Positions 17,164 through 32,004 of a DNA stretch of 32,004 nt are shown here, piece by piece. Position numbers and translations under genes: made by a program. The stretch covers positions 1-32,004 of the forward strand of contig JADBJL010000003.1 of the NCBI GenBank assembly GCA_014874455.1, written 5' to 3'. The notes beneath the pieces are model-generated. The model had not been told where the DNA came from. It ran no database searches and saw only the letters and a list, made by a program, of their open reading frames with translations. This DNA comes from Thermomicrobiaceae bacterium. GTDB lineage: Bacteria > Chloroflexota > Chloroflexia > Thermomicrobiales > Thermomicrobiaceae. How positions within the stretch are numbered: position 1 is the stretch's first letter; every line of letters begins with the position of its first letter.

Positions 17164-17940
17164 ATGACTTCGACGGCCAGGTCTCGAGAGGGCTCGCAAC
17201 AACCAGACGCTCGCCTCCAGCAGGCAACGGAGCGGCTCGGCGTCCGGTTCCGCAACCCGGAACTGCTCCGTCAGGCACTCACCCACCTCTCGTACGTCAA
17301 CGAGCTGAGCCCGCCCCTCCGGGACGCCGTGCACCAGTCGAACGAGCGCCTGGAATTCCTCGGCGACGCCGTGTTGAGCCTGCTGGTTGCTGAGTTCCTC
17401 TACCAGCGGTATCCAGACGCGCCGGAAGGCGAGCTGACGGCGTACCGCACGGCACTGGTGCGCACCCAGACGCTGGCACGCTGGGCTCGCCAACTCGGTC
17501 TCGAGGAACTTCTCTACCTGGGTCGCGGGGAGCGGCCCGAACCGGGCCGCCCGGTGCGCGACCGGATCCTGGCCGGCGCGTTCGAGGCGCTGCTGGCGGC
17601 CATCTACCTGGATCGTGGGATCGGGGCGGTGCGCCGGTTTCTGAGCACGCTGTTGCAGATCGAGGCGGACGAGCGGATCAGTATCAGCCAGGCGGCCAAT
17701 TATAAGGGCCGGTTGCAAGAACTCACTCAGGAGCGCTTGCATATCACGCCGGTGTATCGCACGATTGCGGTATCCGGCCCCGCTCACCAGCGAACTTTCA
17801 CGGCGGAGGTGCTGATCGGCGAGCGATCTTTCGGCGTGGGTCACGGGCCGAGCAAGCGTGCCGCGGAGCAGGAAGCGGCCAGAAGGGCTCTCGAACGGTT
17901 GATCGTGGAGGAGGTCGAGCGAGATCATGGGGCTCTATGA
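17164..17940 (+). CDS. rnc: Ribonuclease III
   Basis: A 258-residue endonuclease for double-stranded RNA, acting in rRNA processing and mRNA decay. The RNase III domain (about 15-165) has the signature N-E-R-L-E-F-L-G-D-A-V-L with Glu64 and Asp68. A dsRNA-binding domain follows (about 178-250), opening N-Y-K-G-R-L-Q-E-L and closing with G-P-S-K-R-A-A-E-Q-E-A-A. In the second metal-binding helix, most family members have L-A-D-x-x-E-A, where the Asp and Glu bind Mg2+; here the codons read L-A-G-A-F-E-A-L, so Gly138 replaces the Asp while Glu141 is kept. The gene follows the unknown 145-residue protein by 6 bases. Its stop overlaps the prs start by 14 bases, so translation is coupled. Confidence 0.95.
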   Translation: MTSTARSREGSQQPDARLQQATERLGVRFRNPELLRQALTHLSYVNELSPPLRDAVHQSNERLEFLGDAVLSLLVAEFLYQRYPDAPEGELTAYRTALVRTQTLARWARQLGLEELLYLGRGERPEPGRPVRDRILAGAFEALLAAIYLDRGIGAVRRFLSTLLQIEADERISISQAANYKGRLQELTQERLHITPVYRTIAVSGPAHQRTFTAEVLIGERSFGVGHGPSKRAAEQEAARRALERLIVEEVERDHGAL

Positions 17941-18898
17941 CCAGCTCACTATTTTCGGGGGAAATTCCAACCCGGAGCTGACGCGCGCCATCTGCGCCTA
18001 CATCGATATCCCGCCAGGACGCATCGAGGTGTTCAAGTTTTCCAACGAGAATATCTTCGTCCGCATCGGAGAGAGCGTGCGAGAGAACGATGTCTTCGTC
18101 ATCCAGTCGTTCTCCAGTCCAGTCAACGAGAACATCATGGAGCTCCTGATCATCATCGACGCGCTCAAGCGCGCCTCTGCCGGCCGGATTACCGCAGTCA
18201 TCCCCTACTTCAGCTACGGCCGTACCGACAAGAAAGACCAGCCCAGGGTACCGATCACGGCGCGACTGATCGCCGATATGATCACCGTCGCCGGTGCTAA
18301 CCGCATCCTGACCGTCGACCTCCACGCTGGCCAGATCCAGGGGTTCTTCAACATCCCGGTCGACGAGATGACTGCGCTCCCGATCCTCGCCCGCTATTTC
18401 CAGGAGAAGGCGCTGCACAATGTCGTCGTGGTCTCGCCTGACCTCGGCAGCACCAAGCGCGCCCGGAACCTGGCCGAGGAGCTGAACGCTCCGCTGGCCA
18501 TCATCGAGAAGCGCCGGCTCGGCAACGACGACCGAACCGAGACGCTGAACCTGATCGGCAGCGTGGAAGATGCCTCGGTCATCCTGATCGACGACGAGAT
18601 CGATACCGCCAGCTCCATAACACAAGCCGCCCAGCTCTGCCTCGATCGCGGCGCGCGGGCGATTTACGCCGCCTGCACGCACCCGGTACTCAGCGGCCCG
18701 GCCATCGAGCGCCTGATCACCAGCCCGATCCAGGAGCTCGTCGTCACCGACACGATTCCGCTTCCGCCCGAGAAGCGCATCGACAAGATCACCGTTCTCT
18801 CGGTGGCACCCCTGCTCGGGGAGTCGATCCAGCGCATCCACACTGGCGCCAGTGTCAGCCTCGCCTATCGCAGCGCCGCCCGCTTGCGGATGCGGTGA
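17927..18898 (+). CDS. prs: Ribose-phosphate pyrophosphokinase (PRPP synthetase)
   Basis: A 323-residue enzyme that transfers pyrophosphate from ATP to ribose-5-phosphate, giving PRPP for purine, pyrimidine, His and Trp synthesis. Class I features are present: N-terminal F-G-G-N-S-N-P-E-L, the catalytic loop Y-F-S-Y-G-R-T-D-K-K-D, the metal-binding segment D-L-H-A-G-Q-I-Q-G-F-F, and the PRPP-binding loop I-L-I-D-D-E-I-D-T-A-S-S-I. That loop is usually D-D-M-I/V-D-T-A-G-T-I, so Met to Glu and Gly-Thr to Ser-Ser are small departures. The start codon lies inside the end of rnc. It is the last gene of the operon; a composition shift begins soon after its stop. Confidence 0.95.
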   Translation: MGLYDQLTIFGGNSNPELTRAICAYIDIPPGRIEVFKFSNENIFVRIGESVRENDVFVIQSFSSPVNENIMELLIIIDALKRASAGRITAVIPYFSYGRTDKKDQPRVPITARLIADMITVAGANRILTVDLHAGQIQGFFNIPVDEMTALPILARYFQEKALHNVVVVSPDLGSTKRARNLAEELNAPLAIIEKRRLGNDDRTETLNLIGSVEDASVILIDDEIDTASSITQAAQLCLDRGARAIYAACTHPVLSGPAIERLITSPIQELVVTDTIPLPPEKRIDKITVLSVAPLLGESIQRIHTGASVSLAYRSAARLRMR

Positions 18899-18913
18899 GG
18901 GCTGCTGTCGTAG

Positions 18914-18951
18914 GCTTGTCTAGCGAAGAGCCTGAAGTAGACTCGCCATGC
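18914..18951 (+). repeat. Left copy of an imperfect direct repeat flanking the oxidase segment
   Basis: This 38-base stretch has three blocks, GCTTGTCT, GAGCCT and GACTCGCCATGC. The same three blocks, in the same order and orientation and with nearly the same spacing (6 and 6 here versus 6 and 7), recur at 23576-23614. The copies bracket the compositionally distinct cox/luxR region, as expected for an inserted segment or for remnants of a duplicated element. On the minus strand this copy falls at the end of an open frame ending S-M-A-S-L-L-Q-A-L-R. Confidence 0.6.
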
Positions 18952-19306
18952 TCTGGCGGAGGGAAGCGGGAAGTCGCGGCAGGTGTTTCAAGTCTGCCTC
19001 GAACTGGCCCAGGCTCATGACCAGGGCCATGCCCCCTGGGTCTCCGGCTGGCACCTCTCCCCCGCCTGCTTCAGAGCCGATCTGCGGGCACCGACCGTCA
19101 CCCCGTCGAGGCCGACCAGGAGGGCTCCCCCGAGCATCTCTGCCCCTCCCGCCAACCCCCTGCACCGCTGCGCCAACCAGGTAGGGGGAGGAACTGCGGG
19201 GCCTCTTCGGGGGCTCAGAGAGACGTTGCCTGCCCTGGTGGGGACGTGCGCCGCCGAGGTGCCTGCGATCACCGAGGTCTGGGGGAGCTCAATCCTCCCA
19301 CCAGTC
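18952..19306. other. Gene-free stretch between prs and the cox operon, possibly decayed coding DNA
   Basis: About 355 bases with no intact gene. On the minus strand two overlapping frames contain protein-like fragments (L-L-V-G-L-D-G-V-T-V-G-A-R-R-S-A-L-K-Q, then in another frame G-M-A-L-V-M-S-L-G-Q-F-E-A-D-L-K-H-L, ending at a stop near 18920). This may be a frameshifted remnant of a larger gene such as a transposase, but I recognise no family. Confidence 0.3.
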
Positions 19307-19876
19307 CTAGCGCACCAGGTAAAGCGTGGGGTAGATGAAGACCCAGGCCACGTCCACGAAATGCCAGTACTTCACGGCCCCTTCCACTCCCCAGTAGTTC
19401 CCATGAGTGAACCGTCCATCCCGTCCCAAGTAGAGGACGATGGAGAGGGCAATGACACCTGTTAGCACGTGGAAAGCGTGCAGACCCGTCGTGGTGAAGA
19501 AGACGGTGCCGTAGGGGTCAGCGGGTGGGAAGTAGATAAACGCCTCGTGCCATTCCACCCCTACCCCAATCAGGAACAGAAGGCCCAAGGCGATGGTCGC
19601 GGCGAGATTGCGTAAAAGGCCGCTCAGGTGGCCATGAGCAGCGGACATCTCGGCCCGGTAGGCACTCAGGCTGCTGGCCAACAGAACCGTGGTGATGGCC
19701 AAGCCCAGGAGTTGATTCACCTCTGGAGGCCGCTCCGCCCCCTGCAGATAGTAACGGCTGGAAAGCGCGGCACCAAACAGGAAACTCTCCGACAGGATGA
19801 ACAACCATAACCCCACCCGGTTGATGAACAACCGAGGCCTAGGGACCCAGCCGATCGCCGAGGGGTGAGCCGCCAT
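19307..19876 (-). CDS. coxC: Cytochrome c oxidase subunit III
   Basis: A 189-residue membrane protein with about five TM segments, the short bacterial form of subunit III. Characteristic pieces are the W-L-F-I-L-S-E-S-F-L-F-G-A helix, carrying the conserved Glu, G-V-E-W-H-E-A, and the closing T-T-G-L-H-A-F-H-V-L-T-G followed by V-K-Y-W-H-F-V-D-V-A-W-V-F-I-Y. Subunit III stabilises the oxidase and its proton uptake but binds no metal. Its ATG (19874-19876) directly touches the TAA of the preceding cox4 gene, and it is the last gene of the operon. As in the other cox genes, codon use is less GC-biased than in the flanking chromosome. Confidence 0.93.
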   Translation of the reverse strand: MAAHPSAIGWVPRPRLFINRVGLWLFILSESFLFGAALSSRYYLQGAERPPEVNQLLGLAITTVLLASSLSAYRAEMSAAHGHLSGLLRNLAATIALGLLFLIGVGVEWHEAFIYFPPADPYGTVFFTTTGLHAFHVLTGVIALSIVLYLGRDGRFTHGNYWGVEGAVKYWHFVDVAWVFIYPTLYLVR

Positions 19877-20089
19877 TTATGCCTCCTTTCTCCAGAGTTG
19901 GGCGATGTGCATGAAGTAATAGAGGATGAGCCCTGCATCTACCCCATTAATGACCAACAAGAGGAAACGGAACAGAATGCGGGGGATGTTCAGCCACAAT
20001 AAGATGAACTCCACCACCGTGAGCACCATCAGAGCCACAAAGACCCAGCGGCCCCGCCGCAAGGCCGCTGCCAAGCCTCTCTGCTCCAT
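19877..20089 (-). CDS. Small cytochrome c oxidase subunit IV-like protein
   Basis: A 70-residue protein with two TM helices (about 15-34 and 38-60) separated by a short N-I-P-R turn, ending in an F-M-H-I-A-Q-L-W-R-K tail. Size, helix pattern, F-M-H-I motif and position between subunits I and III identify it as a bacterial COX4/CtaF-type accessory subunit of heme-copper oxidases. GGAGGAGAGAG lies just before the ATG; the coxA stop is 26 bases upstream. Confidence 0.8.
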   Translation of the reverse strand: MEQRGLAAALRRGRWVFVALMVLTVVEFILLWLNIPRILFRFLLLVINGVDAGLILYYFMHIAQLWRKEA

Positions 20090-20115
20090 CTCTCTCCTCC
20101 TCTATTACCTTCGTC

Positions 20116-21984
20116 TCATTCCCCATTGGAAGCCCCTGCCGCCGCTCCGACTACGGCATGCACCGCTCCAGGAATCCCATAATCATAGGGCGAACCCACC
20201 ACCTCTGGCTCCCGGGGGAAGTTGCCGTGTGGCGGTGGAGAAGAGGTCAGCCACTCCAGGGTCCTGGCCTGCCAGGGGTTAGCCGAGGCCACCGGCCCCC
20301 TCACCCACGAGTAAACCATGTTCCATACAAACACCAGGAAACTCGCAGCCAAGAGGAAGGCGAAGACGCTGACCCACCAATTGGTGTCCGCCAGAGTCGC
20401 GGGATAATCGGCAACACGGCGGGGCATCCCGTGCAGGCCGGTCCAAAACATAGGGATGAAGGTCAGATTATAGGTCACGAACATCCACCAGAAGTGGAGT
20501 CGCCCCAACCGTTCGCTGAACATCCGGCCGGTGATCTTGGGAAACCAGTAATACGTGGCCGCCAAGAGGGCGAAGATTTCGCCTCCCATAATGGTGTAAT
20601 GGAAGTGGCTTACCACGAAGTAGGAATCCTGGAAGTGGAGATCGGTGGGCACATCGGCCAGGTAGATGCCAGTAATCCCTCCAATGAGGAAGTTGAAGAA
20701 GAATCCCAAGGCGAAGAGCATGGGTGTATTGAGTTGGAGCCTCCCCATCCACAAGGTGCCCAGGCCCGCCAGGAACACCATCCCCGTAGGGATGGAGATG
20801 AGTTCGGTGGTCACCATGAAGGGAAGGTGCAGTCGCTCGTCCATGCCGCTGGTGAAAAGGTGATGCGCCCAGACGATGAAGCTTAATCCCACGATCCCCA
20901 GGAAGGACCCCGCCACCCACCGGTAGGCGAACAAAGGCTTACGGGCGAGGTGCGAGACCACCTCCAGCACGATGCCGAAAGCGGGGAGGATCATGATGTA
21001 GACGGCTGGATGAGAGTAGAACCAGAAGAGGTGCTGGAAGAGGAGAGGTTTCCCGCCTTGCGTGGAATTGTAGAAGGAGGTACCGGCCACCCGGTCCAAC
21101 ACATCGGTGAGCAAGGAGAAACCCACGAATTGGGTGGCGGTAAGGCTGATCATGGCGGCCGCCAGGATGGACCAGACAAAGATAGGCAGGCGGAACCAAG
21201 TCATTCCAGGGGCCCTGAGGGTGATAATGGTGGTCAGGAAGTTGAGACCGCCCAGGATGGAGGAGAAACCAAAAGTGATGAAGGCGAGAAGGAAGAGGAG
21301 TTCGCCTCTAGGGTTGGTTACAGCGAGAGGCGGGTAGGCTGTCCAACCGGTTTCAAACCCTCCCATCAAAGGGGTGGCGAGGAGTAGCACTGCGACCGGC
21401 GGGATCAACCAGTAACTCAAAGCATTGATCCTGGGAAAGGCTATCTCTTCGCACCCGATCATCAACGGCACCAGGAAGTTGGCAAAGCCCCCGATGATGA
21501 TGGCCACGGCGACGGCGATCATGAGGATGCCATGCAGGCTCATCAGGGTGTTGTAGGTGCCGGGGCCCATGATCGTGCGCCCTGGGGTCATGAGCTCTAC
21601 TCGCATCCCCACCGCCAGCAGCCCTCCGAGGAGCAGCACCACCATGAAGGTGACCAGATATTGGACGCCGATGACTTTGTGGTCGGTGCAGAAGCGGAAG
21701 AAGCGTCCCCAGCCGGCGCTGGGCTCCTCCTTCCGCGAAAGACCAAACCATTCTCGCACCCAGTAGTCCCACATCCCCACTCCCAAAAGCCATCCCACCA
21801 GCCCGAAGATATAGCCCACAACCAAGAGGGGCCCCAGCTTCCAGGGGTCCTGACCCATCAGGGCTCGTACCCCAGCCACCAGCCCGCTTCCCGCCAGGAA
21901 GCCAACGACTCCAAAGAGGAACCCTTTCACCAGGGGCAATAACGCCCTGAGACCTACGTCCTTTGCGACTGAGCTACCAGCCAT
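20116..21984 (-). CDS. coxA: Cytochrome c oxidase subunit I, A2-type (YSHPAVY)
   Basis: A 622-residue heme-copper oxidase catalytic subunit that reduces O2 to water and pumps protons. Ligands are visible: His151 (S-L-H-G-I-L-M, low-spin heme), His325 with Tyr329 (Y-S-H-P-A-V-Y, CuB and the cross-linked tyrosine), His374 and His375 (W-A-H-H-L-F, CuB), and His460/His462 (H-F-H-Y-T, the two hemes). Y-S-H-P-A-V-Y replaces the G-H-P-E-V-Y of A1 enzymes, so the D-channel glutamate is absent. This marks the A2 subfamily, as in Thermus and Rhodothermus caa3 oxidases. About 95 residues with two predicted TM helices precede the first canonical T-D-H-K-V-I-G segment, an N-terminal extension. The gene overlaps coxB by 31 bases and has AGGAG before its ATG. 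Confidence 0.96.
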   Translation of the reverse strand: MAGSSVAKDVGLRALLPLVKGFLFGVVGFLAGSGLVAGVRALMGQDPWKLGPLLVVGYIFGLVGWLLGVGMWDYWVREWFGLSRKEEPSAGWGRFFRFCTDHKVIGVQYLVTFMVVLLLGGLLAVGMRVELMTPGRTIMGPGTYNTLMSLHGILMIAVAVAIIIGGFANFLVPLMIGCEEIAFPRINALSYWLIPPVAVLLLATPLMGGFETGWTAYPPLAVTNPRGELLFLLAFITFGFSSILGGLNFLTTIITLRAPGMTWFRLPIFVWSILAAAMISLTATQFVGFSLLTDVLDRVAGTSFYNSTQGGKPLLFQHLFWFYSHPAVYIMILPAFGIVLEVVSHLARKPLFAYRWVAGSFLGIVGLSFIVWAHHLFTSGMDERLHLPFMVTTELISIPTGMVFLAGLGTLWMGRLQLNTPMLFALGFFFNFLIGGITGIYLADVPTDLHFQDSYFVVSHFHYTIMGGEIFALLAATYYWFPKITGRMFSERLGRLHFWWMFVTYNLTFIPMFWTGLHGMPRRVADYPATLADTNWWVSVFAFLLAASFLVFVWNMVYSWVRGPVASANPWQARTLEWLTSSPPPHGNFPREPEVVGSPYDYGIPGAVHAVVGAAAGASNGE

Positions 21985-22697
21985 CGCTCAAACTCCTCTT
22001 GTTCCACGACTCGCACGGGGATCACCATCACCGTGTGGCCGGTGCCACAAAGCTCGGCGCACTGCACCCTGAATCCAGGATCTTCCTGGTAACTTCCCAC
22101 CCGACTCGGCGTGAACGATACCGTGGTCACCATGCCCGGCACCGCGTCGATCTTGACGCGGAAAGCAGGTACCCAGAAGGAGTGCACCACGTCCTTGGAA
22201 ATCACTTCCACCTTAACCCGTCGTCCTACAGGGAGCACCAGTTCCTGGGAAGTAGAGACACCCTTGTCAGGATAGATGACCTTCCAACCCCACTGCATTC
22301 CTTCCACCCGCACTACTAGATCAGGCGGAAGATTGGCTGCAGAGCGTACCTTCGCCAGACCGGTGGCCCCGGGAAAGATCATCACCGTCACGGCGAGACC
22401 TGTGGTGACCAGGAGCCATGCCCCTACCAAGGGGCGGTGAACGTGGATCGGCGAACCATCCTCCAGGGCCTGGCCTCGACGGCGAAAGCGGAGCACACTG
22501 TACACGAGGAAGGTGAAGACAACAGCGAACACAGGGATAGCAAGGATGGTCAAGGTTTGGAAGGCTTCATCGACGATCGTGGCCTCTTCAGCGGCAGCTA
22601 TAGGGAACAAGCTCTTCCCCATCCCCACCGCCAAAGCTTCCCCCACGATCGTGAGAACAACGGTCATCCCCGAGGGGAACCACAGATCTCGGCTCAA
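21954..22697 (-). CDS. coxB: Cytochrome c oxidase subunit II (CuA domain, no fused cytochrome c)
   Basis: A 247-residue protein from TTG 22697, backed by GGGGGAGGAG upstream; an ATG at codon 11 is an alternative start. Three hydrophobic segments (about 11-30, 50-68 and 90-108) precede the periplasmic cupredoxin domain. All CuA ligands are present: His172 (V-V-H-S-F-W), Cys213, Glu215 and Cys217 (C-A-E-L-C-G), His221 and Met224. The aromatic patch M-Q-W-G-W for electron entry from cytochrome c is at 134-138. The protein ends soon after the CuA domain, without the C-terminal cytochrome c domain of typical caa3 oxidases, so a separate donor is needed; none is encoded in this window. First gene of the cox operon, 112 bases after the PAS-LuxR regulator on the same strand. 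Confidence 0.95.
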   Translation of the reverse strand: MSRDLWFPSGMTVVLTIVGEALAVGMGKSLFPIAAAEEATIVDEAFQTLTILAIPVFAVVFTFLVYSVLRFRRRGQALEDGSPIHVHRPLVGAWLLVTTGLAVTVMIFPGATGLAKVRSAANLPPDLVVRVEGMQWGWKVIYPDKGVSTSQELVLPVGRRVKVEVISKDVVHSFWVPAFRVKIDAVPGMVTTVSFTPSRVGSYQEDPGFRVQCAELCGTGHTVMVIPVRVVEQEEFERWLVAQSQRT

Positions 22698-22809
22698 AGC
22701 TGCCGCTCCTCCCCCGCTGTGCTTGTTTTCACTTTCACGAGTGTAGGGTAGGCTTCACGCCAAAACTAGGTGCAAATGCATCAACTTGCGGGCAGTCTTG
22801 GGGAAGGGG

Positions 22810-23508
22810 TTAGATGAGGCCACGCTGAGAGGCATACACGACGGCCTGGAGGCGGTTTTTCACCCCCAGCTTGGTCAGAAGCCGGTTGATTAGGTTCCGA
22901 GCGGTAACTGGGCGGATAAAGAGGGCCTCAGCGATCTCCTGTGTCGTCATGCCGGACGCCAAAAGACGCAACACCTGGATCTCCCGGGGAGAGAGGAGAG
23001 GCACTGGACTGGGAGGAGGCTGCAGACCCACGGCCGGAGAAGCCCCTTGCCCCTCCCGGCGTATCTCCCGCAGGGTGGCCGCCACCCTGCGGGCGGAATC
23101 CTCCGTCTGACGGCGCAAGCTGACATCTCGGAAGAGGTGGAGAACGCACGACGTTCCTCGCGTCTCTTTGAGGAGCACGATGCTGACGTTCAGCCATCTC
23201 TCGTCGCCGGAGCTGGTGGTGCACAGGATATCATAGTTCGGCGTCGGCCGGCCCCGACGGGCGTTGACTATGACGGGGCAGTCGGGGCGGCAGAAGCGGT
23301 GGTTGCGGGCATCTAGCCCGCTAACGACCTGGTAGCAGCGCTTCCCCAGAACTTCCTCCGGGCAGTATCCTGTAAGTCGCTGGGCTCCTGGGCTCCAGCA
23401 GAGGACCTGCTGCTGCAGGTCAACTACAAAGGCCCCGTCATCGGTAACGAGATGCGTCCACAGGGCCTCGGAAACCTTCTCCTTTGGGATCTCGATCTCG
23501 GGCGGCAT
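22810..23508 (-). CDS. PAS-domain LuxR-type regulator, cysteine-rich
   Basis: A 232-residue cytosolic regulator from ATG 23508 with GGAGGG just upstream. A PAS domain spans about 20-130 (V-V-D-L-Q-Q-Q-V-L-C-W-S-P-G-A-Q-R-L-T-G-Y). It has seven cysteines (37, 49, 58, 73, 77, 96, 121), including F-C-R-P-D-C-P-V, which suggests redox, metal or heme sensing. A proline-rich linker (about 150-170) leads to a LuxR/FixJ-type HTH (about 171-230: L-S-P-R-E-I-Q-V-L-R-L-L-A-S-G, T-T-Q-E-I-A-E-A-L-F-I, K-L-G-V-K-N-R-L-Q-A-V). There is no receiver domain, so it is a one-component sensor. It lies upstream of coxB on the same strand with its own near-consensus promoter, and probably regulates the oxidase operon. 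That target is inferred from position. Confidence 0.87.
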   Translation of the reverse strand: MPPEIEIPKEKVSEALWTHLVTDDGAFVVDLQQQVLCWSPGAQRLTGYCPEEVLGKRCYQVVSGLDARNHRFCRPDCPVIVNARRGRPTPNYDILCTTSSGDERWLNVSIVLLKETRGTSCVLHLFRDVSLRRQTEDSARRVAATLREIRREGQGASPAVGLQPPPSPVPLLSPREIQVLRLLASGMTTQEIAEALFIRPVTARNLINRLLTKLGVKNRLQAVVYASQRGLI

Positions 23509-23537
23509 TGGCGTCCCTCCGGCAAGCCAGTTTGATC

Positions 23538-23565
23538 ATAATACCCACAACTTCCTCGTTGTCAA
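23538..23565 (-). promoter_or_regulatory. Near-consensus sigma-70 promoter of the PAS-LuxR gene
   Basis: On the minus strand TTGACA (23565-23560) is followed after 16 bases by TATTAT (23543-23538), about 30 bases before the regulator's ATG. AT-rich promoter DNA like this stands out in the local GC-rich background and fits the foreign character of the segment. Confidence 0.75.
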
Positions 23566-23575
23566 AGGCAATTGA

Positions 23576-23614
23576 GCTTGTCTCGCACGGAGCCTAGAGG
23601 TGGACTCGCCATGC
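23576..23614 (+). repeat. Right copy of the imperfect direct repeat flanking the oxidase segment
   Basis: This 39-base stretch has the blocks GCTTGTCT, GAGCCT and GACTCGCCATGC, matching the left copy at 18914-18951 in order and orientation (26 of the bases lie in identical blocks). It lies just outside the luxR promoter, between the island and the penicillin-binding protein gene. Confidence 0.6.
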
Positions 23615-23830
23615 AGTGCGAAAGGGTGGCCTGTATCCTCGCTGTGGGCTGTGATTTGCACGACAGGCCCCCTGTCCTTGACGTTTCATCCGGCCGCGTG
23701 CCAGCATTGTGCCGAACGGTCACCCGCTGCGAGCAGGTGGGGACGAAGTCGCGCCGCCTCTGCTGTGCCTCGACCGAGGACTGCTGTGCTCCCGGGATCG
23801 GAGCGGCTCAGAGACAGGAGACGCCTGCCG

Positions 23831-26005
23831 GTGCCAGGGTATCGCTCTCCCTATTCCCAGCGGCCGCCGCGACGTAACACGGGCTCCACCCTGCTCATCG
23901 GCACACTGGTGCTGGCCGTCCTCTCTGTCGGCTTCTTCCTGCTCGCCGACCGTCTCGGCCAGGCTGGCCAGCCGACCGCCGAGCCCGGGGTAACCACCGG
24001 CGCCTCCGCGACCGCTACCCCGACCCCGAGCTACCGGACGCCGCGCGACGTCGTCGACGCCTTCGTCGAGCGCTGGATGCGCGGCGACTACGCTGGCATG
24101 TACGAGCTGCTCTCCGAAGCCTCGAAGGCGCACATCAGCAAGGAAGACTTCGTTGCCCGCTACGAGGGGATCGCCCAGGAGATGGGCCAGCGCTCGATCC
24201 AGGTAACGGTCGGCGAAGCCCCCGCGCAAGTGACTCGTCTCCCCATCCATGTCGTCCGCCAGACCGACCGGGTGGGCACACTGACTGAAGACAACGCCAT
24301 CCCGGTAGTGGAAGAGGACGGGGAGTACCGGATCGACTGGACACCCTCGGTGATCGTCGCCGAGCTGTCCGATGGGTTCGTCCGCTGGATCCCGTCGGTT
24401 CCCCAGCGCGGCCGCATCCTCGACCGCAAGGGCCGGCCGCTGGCCCACCTGGGCACGGTGAACAAGGTGGGCGTGATCCCCGGTCAGATCCAGGACGAGC
24501 AGGCCCTGCTCGACAAGCTGAGCCAGCTCCTCCGATTGCCCCCGGAAACGATCAAGCAGCGCTACCAGGGCGGCCAGCCGGACTGGTTCATGCCCATCAA
24601 GAGCTTGCCCGACCCGCTCGACCCGGCCCTGCTCCAGGAACTAGCCGGCATCCCCGGCGTGGTCGTACGCCAGTGGCCGGAGCGGGTCTATCCAGCCGGG
24701 CCAGCCGCGGCACACCTGACCGGCTACCTGACCGAGGTCACTGGCGACGAGCTGCAGCAGCTCGCCGAGGGCGGCTACGAGCCGGGCGACCGGATCGGCC
24801 GCGCGGGGATCGAGGCCTGGGGTGAGCAGTACCTGCGCGGCAAGCGCGGCGGCCGGCTGGTGATCGTTGGCCCCGACGGCCGGGAGCGCAAGGTGCTGGC
24901 CGAAGTGCCCAGCCAGCCGGCAGCCGATGTCGTGACCACTATCGACCTCGACCTCCAGATGGCCGCCTACCAGGCACTCGGCGACCGCACCGGGAGTATC
25001 GTCGTCATCGACCCCAACAGCGGCGCGATCCTGGCCATGGTCAGCAACCCGAGCTTCGACCCCAACCAGTTCATCCTCGGCCTGAGCCAGGAGGACTGGA
25101 CTGCGCTCAACGACGAGCAGCGGCGGCCACTGCTGAACCGGGCGACCCAGGTCGGCTACCCGATCGGCTCGACCTTTAAGGTGGTCACCATGGCCGCCGG
25201 GATGCAGTACCTCGGGCTGACGGCACAGTCCGCCTTCGACTGTCCAGCGACCTTCTCTCTGCCGGGGAGCCCGCAGGTCTGGCGCGACTGGAGCCCACAC
25301 GGGCAGGGGAGACTGAGCCTGCACAACGCGCTGGTACAGTCCTGCAACACGGTCTTCTTCCAGATCGGGGCTGAGCTGGATGCCCGCGAGCCGAACCTCC
25401 TGCCCCAGATGGCCCGCGCCTTCGGCTTCGGCTCCGAGACCGGGCTTCCGGAGCTGCCGGAAGTGGCAGGGATCGTGCCCGACCCGGAGTGGAAGCTCCG
25501 CACGCACGGCGACTACTGGGCTCGCGGCGACGCGGTCAACCTCGCGATCGGCCAGGGCTTCTTCCTGGCCACGCCGCTCCAGGTCGTCGACGCGTACGCG
25601 GCGCTGGCCAACGGTGGCACCCTGTGGCAGCCGTACCTGGTGCAGGAGGTGGTGGCGATCGACGGCACCAAGCTCTACGCTGCCCAGCCCAAGCCGCGCG
25701 GCACGCTCCCCATCTCCCCGGAGATCCAGGGAGCGATCCGGGCGGCCCTGCGCGATGTGACCGCTGCTCCCAACGGCACCGCCTTCGCCCCCTTCCAGGG
25801 CGTGGCCCAGCCGGTGGCCGGCAAGACGGGCACCGCTGAGTCGGGCCAGGAGCAGCCGCACGCCTGGTTCACCGCCTTCAGCCCGGTCGACGGCGCCCGG
25901 CTGGCACTGGTGGTGATGGTCGAGCACGGTGGCGAGGGTTCGCGCACCGCCGCGCCGATCGCCCGCCAGGTCATCGACGCCGCCGTCCAGGCCGGGATCC
26001 CATAG
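23831..26005 (+). CDS. Class B penicillin-binding protein (transpeptidase) with NTF2-like (MecA-N) domain
   Basis: Start: GTG at 23831 with CAGGAG ten bases upstream (724 residues); this puts the single N-terminal TM helix (about 19-40) right after a short basic cytosolic tail, as usual. A Thr/Pro linker is followed by an NTF2-like domain, about 70-180 (V-V-D-A-F-V-E-R-W-M-R-G-D-Y-A-G-M-Y), as found in MecA/PBP2a and related proteins. The dimerisation domain opens Q-R-G-R-I-L-D-R-K-G. The transpeptidase domain has the three penicillin-binding motifs: Ser447-Thr-Phe-Lys450, Ser504-Cys-Asn506 and Lys665-Thr-Gly. It cross-links peptidoglycan outside the membrane. The NTF2-like domain does not by itself mean beta-lactam resistance. 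Monocistronic, downstream of the oxidase island. Confidence 0.93.
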   Translation: MPGYRSPYSQRPPRRNTGSTLLIGTLVLAVLSVGFFLLADRLGQAGQPTAEPGVTTGASATATPTPSYRTPRDVVDAFVERWMRGDYAGMYELLSEASKAHISKEDFVARYEGIAQEMGQRSIQVTVGEAPAQVTRLPIHVVRQTDRVGTLTEDNAIPVVEEDGEYRIDWTPSVIVAELSDGFVRWIPSVPQRGRILDRKGRPLAHLGTVNKVGVIPGQIQDEQALLDKLSQLLRLPPETIKQRYQGGQPDWFMPIKSLPDPLDPALLQELAGIPGVVVRQWPERVYPAGPAAAHLTGYLTEVTGDELQQLAEGGYEPGDRIGRAGIEAWGEQYLRGKRGGRLVIVGPDGRERKVLAEVPSQPAADVVTTIDLDLQMAAYQALGDRTGSIVVIDPNSGAILAMVSNPSFDPNQFILGLSQEDWTALNDEQRRPLLNRATQVGYPIGSTFKVVTMAAGMQYLGLTAQSAFDCPATFSLPGSPQVWRDWSPHGQGRLSLHNALVQSCNTVFFQIGAELDAREPNLLPQMARAFGFGSETGLPELPEVAGIVPDPEWKLRTHGDYWARGDAVNLAIGQGFFLATPLQVVDAYAALANGGTLWQPYLVQEVVAIDGTKLYAAQPKPRGTLPISPEIQGAIRAALRDVTAAPNGTAFAPFQGVAQPVAGKTGTAESGQEQPHAWFTAFSPVDGARLALVVMVEHGGEGSRTAAPIARQVIDAAVQAGIP

Positions 26006-30678: not shown

Positions 30679-30774
30679 TGGCGGGAAGGGAGGGATTCGA
30701 ACCCTCGGGGGCCGGTTTACGCCAGCCCCAATCGCTTAGCAGGCGACCCCTTTCGACCTCTCAGGCACCTTCCC
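30679..30774 (-). tRNA. tRNA-Ser (anticodon GCT), CCA encoded
   Basis: Read on the minus strand, the acceptor GGGAAGG pairs with CCTTCCC, followed by discriminator G and an encoded CCA (30679-30681). The anticodon stem GTCGC/GCGAT closes the loop CTGCTAA, giving GCT, which reads AGC/AGU. A long variable arm (GGGGCTGG with CCGGCCCC) is the class II mark of serine tRNAs. T arm: GAGGG-TTCGAAT-CCCTC. Confidence 0.95.
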
Positions 30775-30791
30775 GTGCGGAGCTGCTGCGG

Positions 30792-30875
30792 CGGAGAGGG
30801 AGGGATTCGAACCCCCGGGGCTCGTCGCCCTGCTGTTTTCAAGACAGCCGCCTTCAGCCACTCGGCCACCTCTCC
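30792..30875 (-). tRNA. tRNA-Ser (anticodon TGA), CCA not encoded
   Basis: Read on the minus strand, acceptor GGAGAGG pairs with CCTCTCC, then discriminator G, followed by CCG rather than CCA. The anticodon stem GCTGT/ACAGC encloses CTTGAAA, so the anticodon is TGA (UCN serine codons). A variable arm GGGC-GACGA-GCCC confirms class II. T loop TTCGAAT is present. It lies 17 bases from the GCT tRNA; the two are probably one transcript, with this gene first. Confidence 0.95.
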
Positions 30876-31115: not shown

Positions 31116-31150
31116 CGGCTCATGGGTGGCAAGGCCCAGGTCGCTATCGA

Positions 31151-32004
31151 GTTTCAGGCCCTCATAGCTACTGTCGGAACAGCCAACGCTGGTTTGGGCC
31201 AATGTCCATCGTCAGGTTTCAAGCCCTCATAGGTACTGTCGGAACATGACTTCGACCTTGAGGAAGCTGATCGGGCTGGTGGGGTCGTTTCAAGCCCTCA
31301 TAGGTACTGTCGGAACTGTACCCCCCGCACGATATCTCCATCGACTTCGAGCTGTTTCAAGCCCTCATAGGTACTGTCGGAACAAGGGGCCTTGCCGGCG
31401 TTGTGCCGGATGGTGACCCGGGTTTCAAGCCCTCATAGGTACTGTCGGAACGCGCTCGCGCTCTGCCTCGTCCTGGTAGAGGTGCCAGGTTTCAAGCCCT
31501 CATAGGTACTGTCGGAACCCGGAGCGGATCGCCGAGCGGAGCCAGCTCCTGGCGGTTTCAAGCCCTCATAGGTACTGTCGGAACGATCGTCGGCCACTGG
31601 CACCGGGCGCAGGTGTATCTCGTTTCAAGCCCTCATAGGTACTGTCGGAACGCTGCTCGGCGAGCTGTTCGATGACCTCACCCATCTCGGGTTTCAAGCC
31701 CTCATAGGTACTGTCGGAACGCTGCGGCTGCCCGCGGGACGGGCAGAAGCACGTGGTGGTTTCAAGCCCTCATAGGTACTGTCGGAACCACGGCTGCCCG
31801 TTCGAGGTGAGGATCTTCCGGGTCGTTTCAAGCCCTCATAGGTACTGTCGGAACGGTCCTTGCTCGACCTGCACATCCCACCACGCTAGCGGCGGTTTCA
31901 AGCCCTCATAGGTACTGTCGGAACTTAGGGGAGGTGCGGCGGCTGATGCAGGGCGAGACAGTTTCAAGCCCTCATAGGTACTGTCGGAACCAGGACGACC
32001 CTCA
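31151..32004 (-). CRISPR. CRISPR array, 13 repeats visible, continuing past the right edge
   Basis: The 30-base repeat (plus strand) starts GTTTCAAGCCCTCATAGG and ends TACTGTCGGAAC. Copies start at 31151, 31216, 31287, 31354, 31422, 31489, 31555, 31622, 31691, 31759, 31825, 31895 and 31961. The twelve full spacers are 35-41 bases and all different; a thirteenth is cut by the window end. The first copy has two changes (AAGCCC to AGGCCC, GGTAC to GCTAC); the other twelve are identical. A degenerate repeat marks the trailer end, and the repeat's minus-strand form ends TTGAAAC, like the 5' handle of many type I and III crRNAs. Both indicate transcription right to left, with the leader beyond 32004. 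No cas gene is in the window, so the type cannot be set. Confidence 0.97.

Follow-up and report, generated by a model that had tools for sequence, protein, structure and literature searches.

A type A2 cytochrome oxidase operon and a PAS-LuxR regulator gene form an insertion between prs and a penicillin-binding-protein gene in a Thermomicrobiaceae genome

Introduction

Does a cytochrome oxidase operon that lies, together with a regulator gene, between two short direct repeats constitute a mobile or recombined unit, and how could it have reached its present site? The question is raised by a locus in a 32,004-nucleotide stretch of DNA from a Thermomicrobiaceae bacterium (termed here the window), which represents an entire contig (C24) of a draft genome of 114 contigs with 4.6% estimated contamination. 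A first-pass annotation made from the letters of the window had read the segment between the repeats as such a unit. We compared the locus with the genomes of relatives, with other Chloroflexota and with plasmid and viral sequences.

Results and discussion

The oxidase locus is an insertion specific to one genome

In the family, prs and the gene of a penicillin-binding protein (PBP) are same-strand neighbours at 16 loci, with a spacing of 93-838 bp. Their adjacency in relatives, which the first-pass annotation itself had proposed as a test of insertion, was confirmed in two same-genus genomes, G003 (locus L004, flanks 91% identical) and G001 (locus L005, 85-86%), where the site is empty: the prs stop codon is followed by 16 nt and then by CTTGACG and the remaining PBP upstream region. 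On the left, both genomes are homologous to the window as far as approximately the prs stop codon (18898), and their alignment to positions 23560-23960 begins only at 23677, each border of the insert being uncertain by roughly 15 bp. The features of the locus are as follows.

17927..18898, plus strand: prs (ribose-phosphate pyrophosphokinase), left flank
18899..23676, no strand: inserted segment, about 4,778 bp (~4.78 kb), between the prs stop and CTTGACG of the PBP gene
18914..18951, plus strand: repeat copy A, ~15 bp inside the left border
18952..19306, no strand: G+C-rich stretch of 355 bp, G+C 0.70, no significant relative
19307..19876, minus strand: coxC/ctaE, subunit III
19877..20089, minus strand: cox4 (subunit IV-like), 70 aa, its stop adjoining the coxC start
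20116..21984, minus strand: coxA/ctaD, subunit I, type A2, YSHPAV at residue 323
21954..22697, minus strand: coxB/ctaC, subunit II, CuA motif CAELCGTGHTVM, CoxB model score above cut-off
22810..23508, minus strand: PAS-LuxR (GerE) transcription regulator, 232 aa
23538..23565, minus strand: promoter-like TTGACA-16-TATTAT preceding the regulator gene
23576..23614, plus strand: repeat copy B, ~62 bp inside the right border
23831..26005, plus strand: PBP gene, right flank, its conserved upstream TTGACG intact despite the insertion

With the site empty in two same-genus genomes, the 18899-23676 block is shown to be an insertion specific to the source genome among the same-genus genomes having the region. 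These are G003 and G001, the two nearest relatives in which it is present; the third same-genus genome (G002, 81% complete) is without the region and hence uninformative. The insert stops just short of TTGACG, a sequence that is conserved in the prs-PBP spacer of other genera too and probably serves the PBP promoter as its -35 element. Neither neighbouring gene is thus broken. As a separate observation, the longest of these spacers (838 bp, locus L014) contains many palindromic AGCCGGCTTCAGCCGGCT-like units, which may belong to a repeat family dispersed in that genus.

The insert encodes a cytochrome c oxidase of type A2

Read on the minus strand, the insert comprises in order a promoter, the PAS-LuxR regulator gene, coxB, coxA, cox4, coxC, a hairpin, the 355-bp stretch and repeat copy A. 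The AT-rich consensus promoter of the first-pass annotation was recovered at 23565-23538, with matches at 11 of 12 consensus positions. The cox4 product scored slightly under the curated cut-off of the COX4_pro family (E 4e-6, 27.4 bits against 28.9) with an approximate query carrying an extra MV in front; its reading frame was confirmed separately, and homologues occupy the equivalent place in other loci. Directly 3' of coxC lies a hairpin with no T run, a possible terminator.

Types A1 and A2 are defined in PMC8780969; in A2, helix VI has YSHPXV instead of XGHPEV. CoxA carries YSHPAV and no HPE, and CoxB has the full CuA motif, which marks the enzyme as a cytochrome c rather than a quinol oxidase; the earlier assignment to type A2 is thus borne out. 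In gene content and order, CuA motif and YSHPXV, the insert resembles the A-family (type A2) coxBA4C operons of Chloroflexota. It differs from these in being precisely bounded, apparently recent and found in a single genome, in having a regulator, and in containing no assembly or haem A genes.

Composition and phylogeny point to a foreign origin

Between the repeats the G+C content falls to about 59%. The genes of the segment have a G+C of 0.56-0.63 against 0.677 and 0.689 in the flanks, their GC3 is 0.69-0.77 against 0.78-0.92 in most flanking genes, and they use the leucine codons CTG and CTC less than the flanks do. The lower G+C and different codon use claimed for the interval hold for its genes; the 18952-19306 stretch has a host-like G+C and could have come from elsewhere than the operon.

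The closest CoxA sequences are those of G228 (73% identity, partial) and HOT.Cluster.3 (68%, a Chloroflexi bin); all others are 63% identical or less. Maximum-likelihood analysis places the inserted CoxA beside these two, among other Chloroflexota lineages. The native CoxA proteins of the family form another group, where the genome's native copy (L209) pairs with G003; the split of the inserted CoxA from this group has 100/99 support. The phylogeny of the inserted CoxA is thus discordant with its host. COX1-family genes number five in the source genome against four in each of G003 and G001; the insert thus supplies an additional oxidase, the fifth gene of this family. When the insert was compared as DNA with plasmids, only partial coxA matches of 60-90% identity were obtained, none spanning most of the insert.

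Empty sites, CoxA tree and composition together uphold the earlier view that the segment is foreign and inserted, with an A2-type oxidase and what would be its dedicated regulator. An unsampled Chloroflexota very probably donated it by horizontal transfer, promoter, regulator and structural genes coming together as a ready-made module. We infer that the insertion is recent and that its source was a distant Chloroflexota lineage, the closest CoxA reaching no more than 73% identity. Trees have been taken to mean that Chloroflexota classes acquired A-family oxidases independently (PMC5826079). Such evidence concerns transfer at the level of classes; here an empty and a filled site can be compared, with borders placed to ~15 bp, and the locus offers a clean and seemingly recent case of an entire terminal-oxidase module moving with its regulator between Chloroflexota lineages.

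Of the rival explanations, a chimera assembled with contaminating DNA of the draft is extremely improbable: the contamination estimate and the lower G+C of the segment would agree with it, but the segment is internal to one contig with native flanks on both sides of the conserved junction.

PAS-LuxR regulators recur beside cox operons

Searches for the regulator in 60 relatives gave partial best matches only, mostly to the HTH, and the full protein was absent. A LuxR-type regulator lies upstream of the cox genes and on the same strand at 14 of the 80 loci where over 2.5 kb of sequence precedes coxA. Because of this recurrence we count the regulator, on sequence grounds, as part of the oxidase module. 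The composition of this module varies, since G228 and HOT.Cluster.3, the nearest CoxA relatives, show no such regulator in the available DNA. At the Anaerolineae cox loci the upstream regulator is mostly a LuxR protein with a receiver domain. The regulator of the insert resembles these NarL/LuxR-type response regulators in position, orientation and homologous HTH, whereas it carries a PAS domain in place of the receiver domain of the two-component type.

Three loci from two families (L088, L091 and L092) encode full-length PAS-LuxR homologues of 32-33% identity beside cox operons. These and the regulator of the window have three cysteines in common, spaced in the PAS domain as C, 16-18 residues, C-x3-C, which could form a redox or metal site. 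PAS-LuxR regulators with three conserved cysteines beside cox operons provide a testable lead on oxidase control in Chloroflexota.

The direct repeats lie inside the insert

The two copies, of the same orientation, share the layout GCTTGTCT-N6-GAGCCT followed by N6 (copy A) or N7 (copy B) and GACTCGCCATGC. Comparison of the insert ends with each other by BLASTN aligned them over 39 columns with 82% identity (E ~1e-6), in agreement with the two copies of about 38 bases reported in the first-pass annotation. By G+C-aware scoring of 70,500 tile pairs from the first 31 kb of the window, they were the top direct repeat with copies separated by at least 1 kb (36.5 bits, runner-up 31.0). A plain match/mismatch score as high was reached by 0 of 2000 shuffles; the plain +1/-1 score is far less striking when compared within this G+C-rich window, being reached by 0.3% of tile pairs. 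We take the 38-39 bp pair as real.

The 12-mer GACTCGCCATGC, the identical core of both copies, occurs twice in the 3.37-Mb genome, both times at this locus. Allowing up to three mismatches, a genome-wide search for the full pattern gave no additional site (copy B was missed solely through its extra base). Among 400 Chloroflexota genomes, the pattern GAGCCT-N4-9-GACTCGCCATG returned the two window copies and one match in G215; a reversed control pattern also gave one match, which puts the G215 match at chance level. This pattern had no match in the G003 and G001 genomes or in viral contigs.

Two expectations attached to the repeats failed. They are not the exact borders of the segment, as both copies lie inside it, and the single copy expected at the empty site is lacking, the sites of G003 and G001 having none. 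Being inside the insert and absent from the empty sites, the repeats are not a duplicated target; they arrived together with the insert.

What the repeats do there could be explained in several ways. Copy B might be a regulator-binding site before the promoter; copy A would then be another such site or what is left of a module once present in tandem. LuxR-type activators often bind about -45 to -83 upstream, and copy B lies on the minus strand at about these positions relative to the presumed start of the regulator transcript. This explanation is nonetheless unlikely: no similar motif is present upstream of the PAS-LuxR genes of L088, L091 and L092 or upstream of coxB in the insert, and there is no gene behind copy A.

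A second explanation is that the repeats are attL/attR-like or cassette-end recombination sites of a non-autonomous element whose recombinase acted in trans, a circle with one copy having recombined with a copy pre-existing between prs and the PBP gene. The direct orientation, the closeness of both copies to the borders and the identical 12-bp core absent elsewhere in the genome would fit such sites, and attL/attR elements and integron cassettes likewise have short direct repeats near both ends. Unlike these, the insert is a multigene operon with its own promoter, contains no recombinase, and has its repeats inside the borders. The empty site of both relatives has no such pre-existing copy, and an 18% difference between the copies is much for a recent insertion unless the arms differed originally. 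With no second such element in the 400 genomes or the viral contigs either, we regard this origin as distinctly unlikely. It is very unlikely that the regulator and oxidase module moves between Chloroflexota as a non-autonomous cassette, with an in-trans recombinase recognising the 38-39 bp direct repeats.

The repeats and the 355-bp stretch could also be the decayed ends of two insertion-sequence copies, the whole being the remnant of a composite transposon. Translated in one minus-strand frame, the copies give similar residues (ASLRQSMAS and ATLSHCMAS), a hint of a shared coding origin, and the frame at 18923-19018 looks protein-like. Neither the peptide nor the stretch has a family or a convincing genome match, however, and inverted matches between the insert ends are at chance level, which leaves such a remnant distinctly unlikely. 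Horizontal transfer of a ready-made module remains the preferred reading.

Search for the agent of integration

The genes of the insert were identified, and none is an integrase, recombinase or transposase. The 18952-19306 stretch, proposed earlier to hold a decayed remnant of whatever moved the segment, is crossed by a short minus-strand reading frame ending at about 18920. Its reading frames had no Pfam or NCBIfam match, no notable plasmid or phage match and only weak unrelated matches in genomes, and the stretch showed no transposase similarity. Searched as DNA, the left-end 412 or 341 bp gave 28-40 bp matches of borderline E in relatives and the phylum and none in plasmids, and nothing in 18860-19320 exceeded the gathering score for structured RNA. 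The proposed remnant thus gained no support from DNA, protein-family, plasmid, phage or genome searches. The sole candidate for a target duplication is CTTG, at 18915-18918 and 23677-23680, of a length too short to tell from chance. A terminal inverted repeat considered by eye, GGGCTGCTGTCGT (18899-18911) and ACGACAGGCCCCC (23660-23672), matches at 10 of 13 positions; it was rejected, as BLASTN aligned 7 bp exactly, which is chance level.

The insert resembles genomic islands and other horizontally transferred operons in its foreign composition, clean empty site and added function, and differs from genomic islands in that no integrase, tRNA site or plasmid gene was found at it. Of the initial reading as a mobile or recombined unit, the foreign insertion therefore stands; mobility lacks a corresponding gene in the insert and a repeat copy at the empty sites.

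Either illegitimate recombination or an in-trans element of which no gene remains would have integrated the transferred module, at a site such that neither prs nor the PBP gene was disrupted. Judged from its motifs, it would provide the host with an extra aa3-type oxidase using cytochrome c, haem A synthesis and assembly presumably being supplied by the host's own genes. Expression of the oxidase would be under the PAS-type regulator, whose cysteines may sense redox state or oxygen.

Other features of the window

A CRISPR array at 31147-31993 has at least 13 repeats of GTTTCAAGCCCTCATAGGTACTGTCGGAAC with a spacing of 65-71 towards the contig end, the first copy being slightly degenerate. Two adjacent tRNA-Ser genes (GCT and TGA anticodons) are located on the minus strand at 30679-30875. 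The gene at 53-1459 appears by eye to contain an internal duplication, VQYFERARFEYHPEYAGT occurring twice, and its C-terminal HGNYW...SNGCVGL resembles, also by eye, an L,D-transpeptidase.
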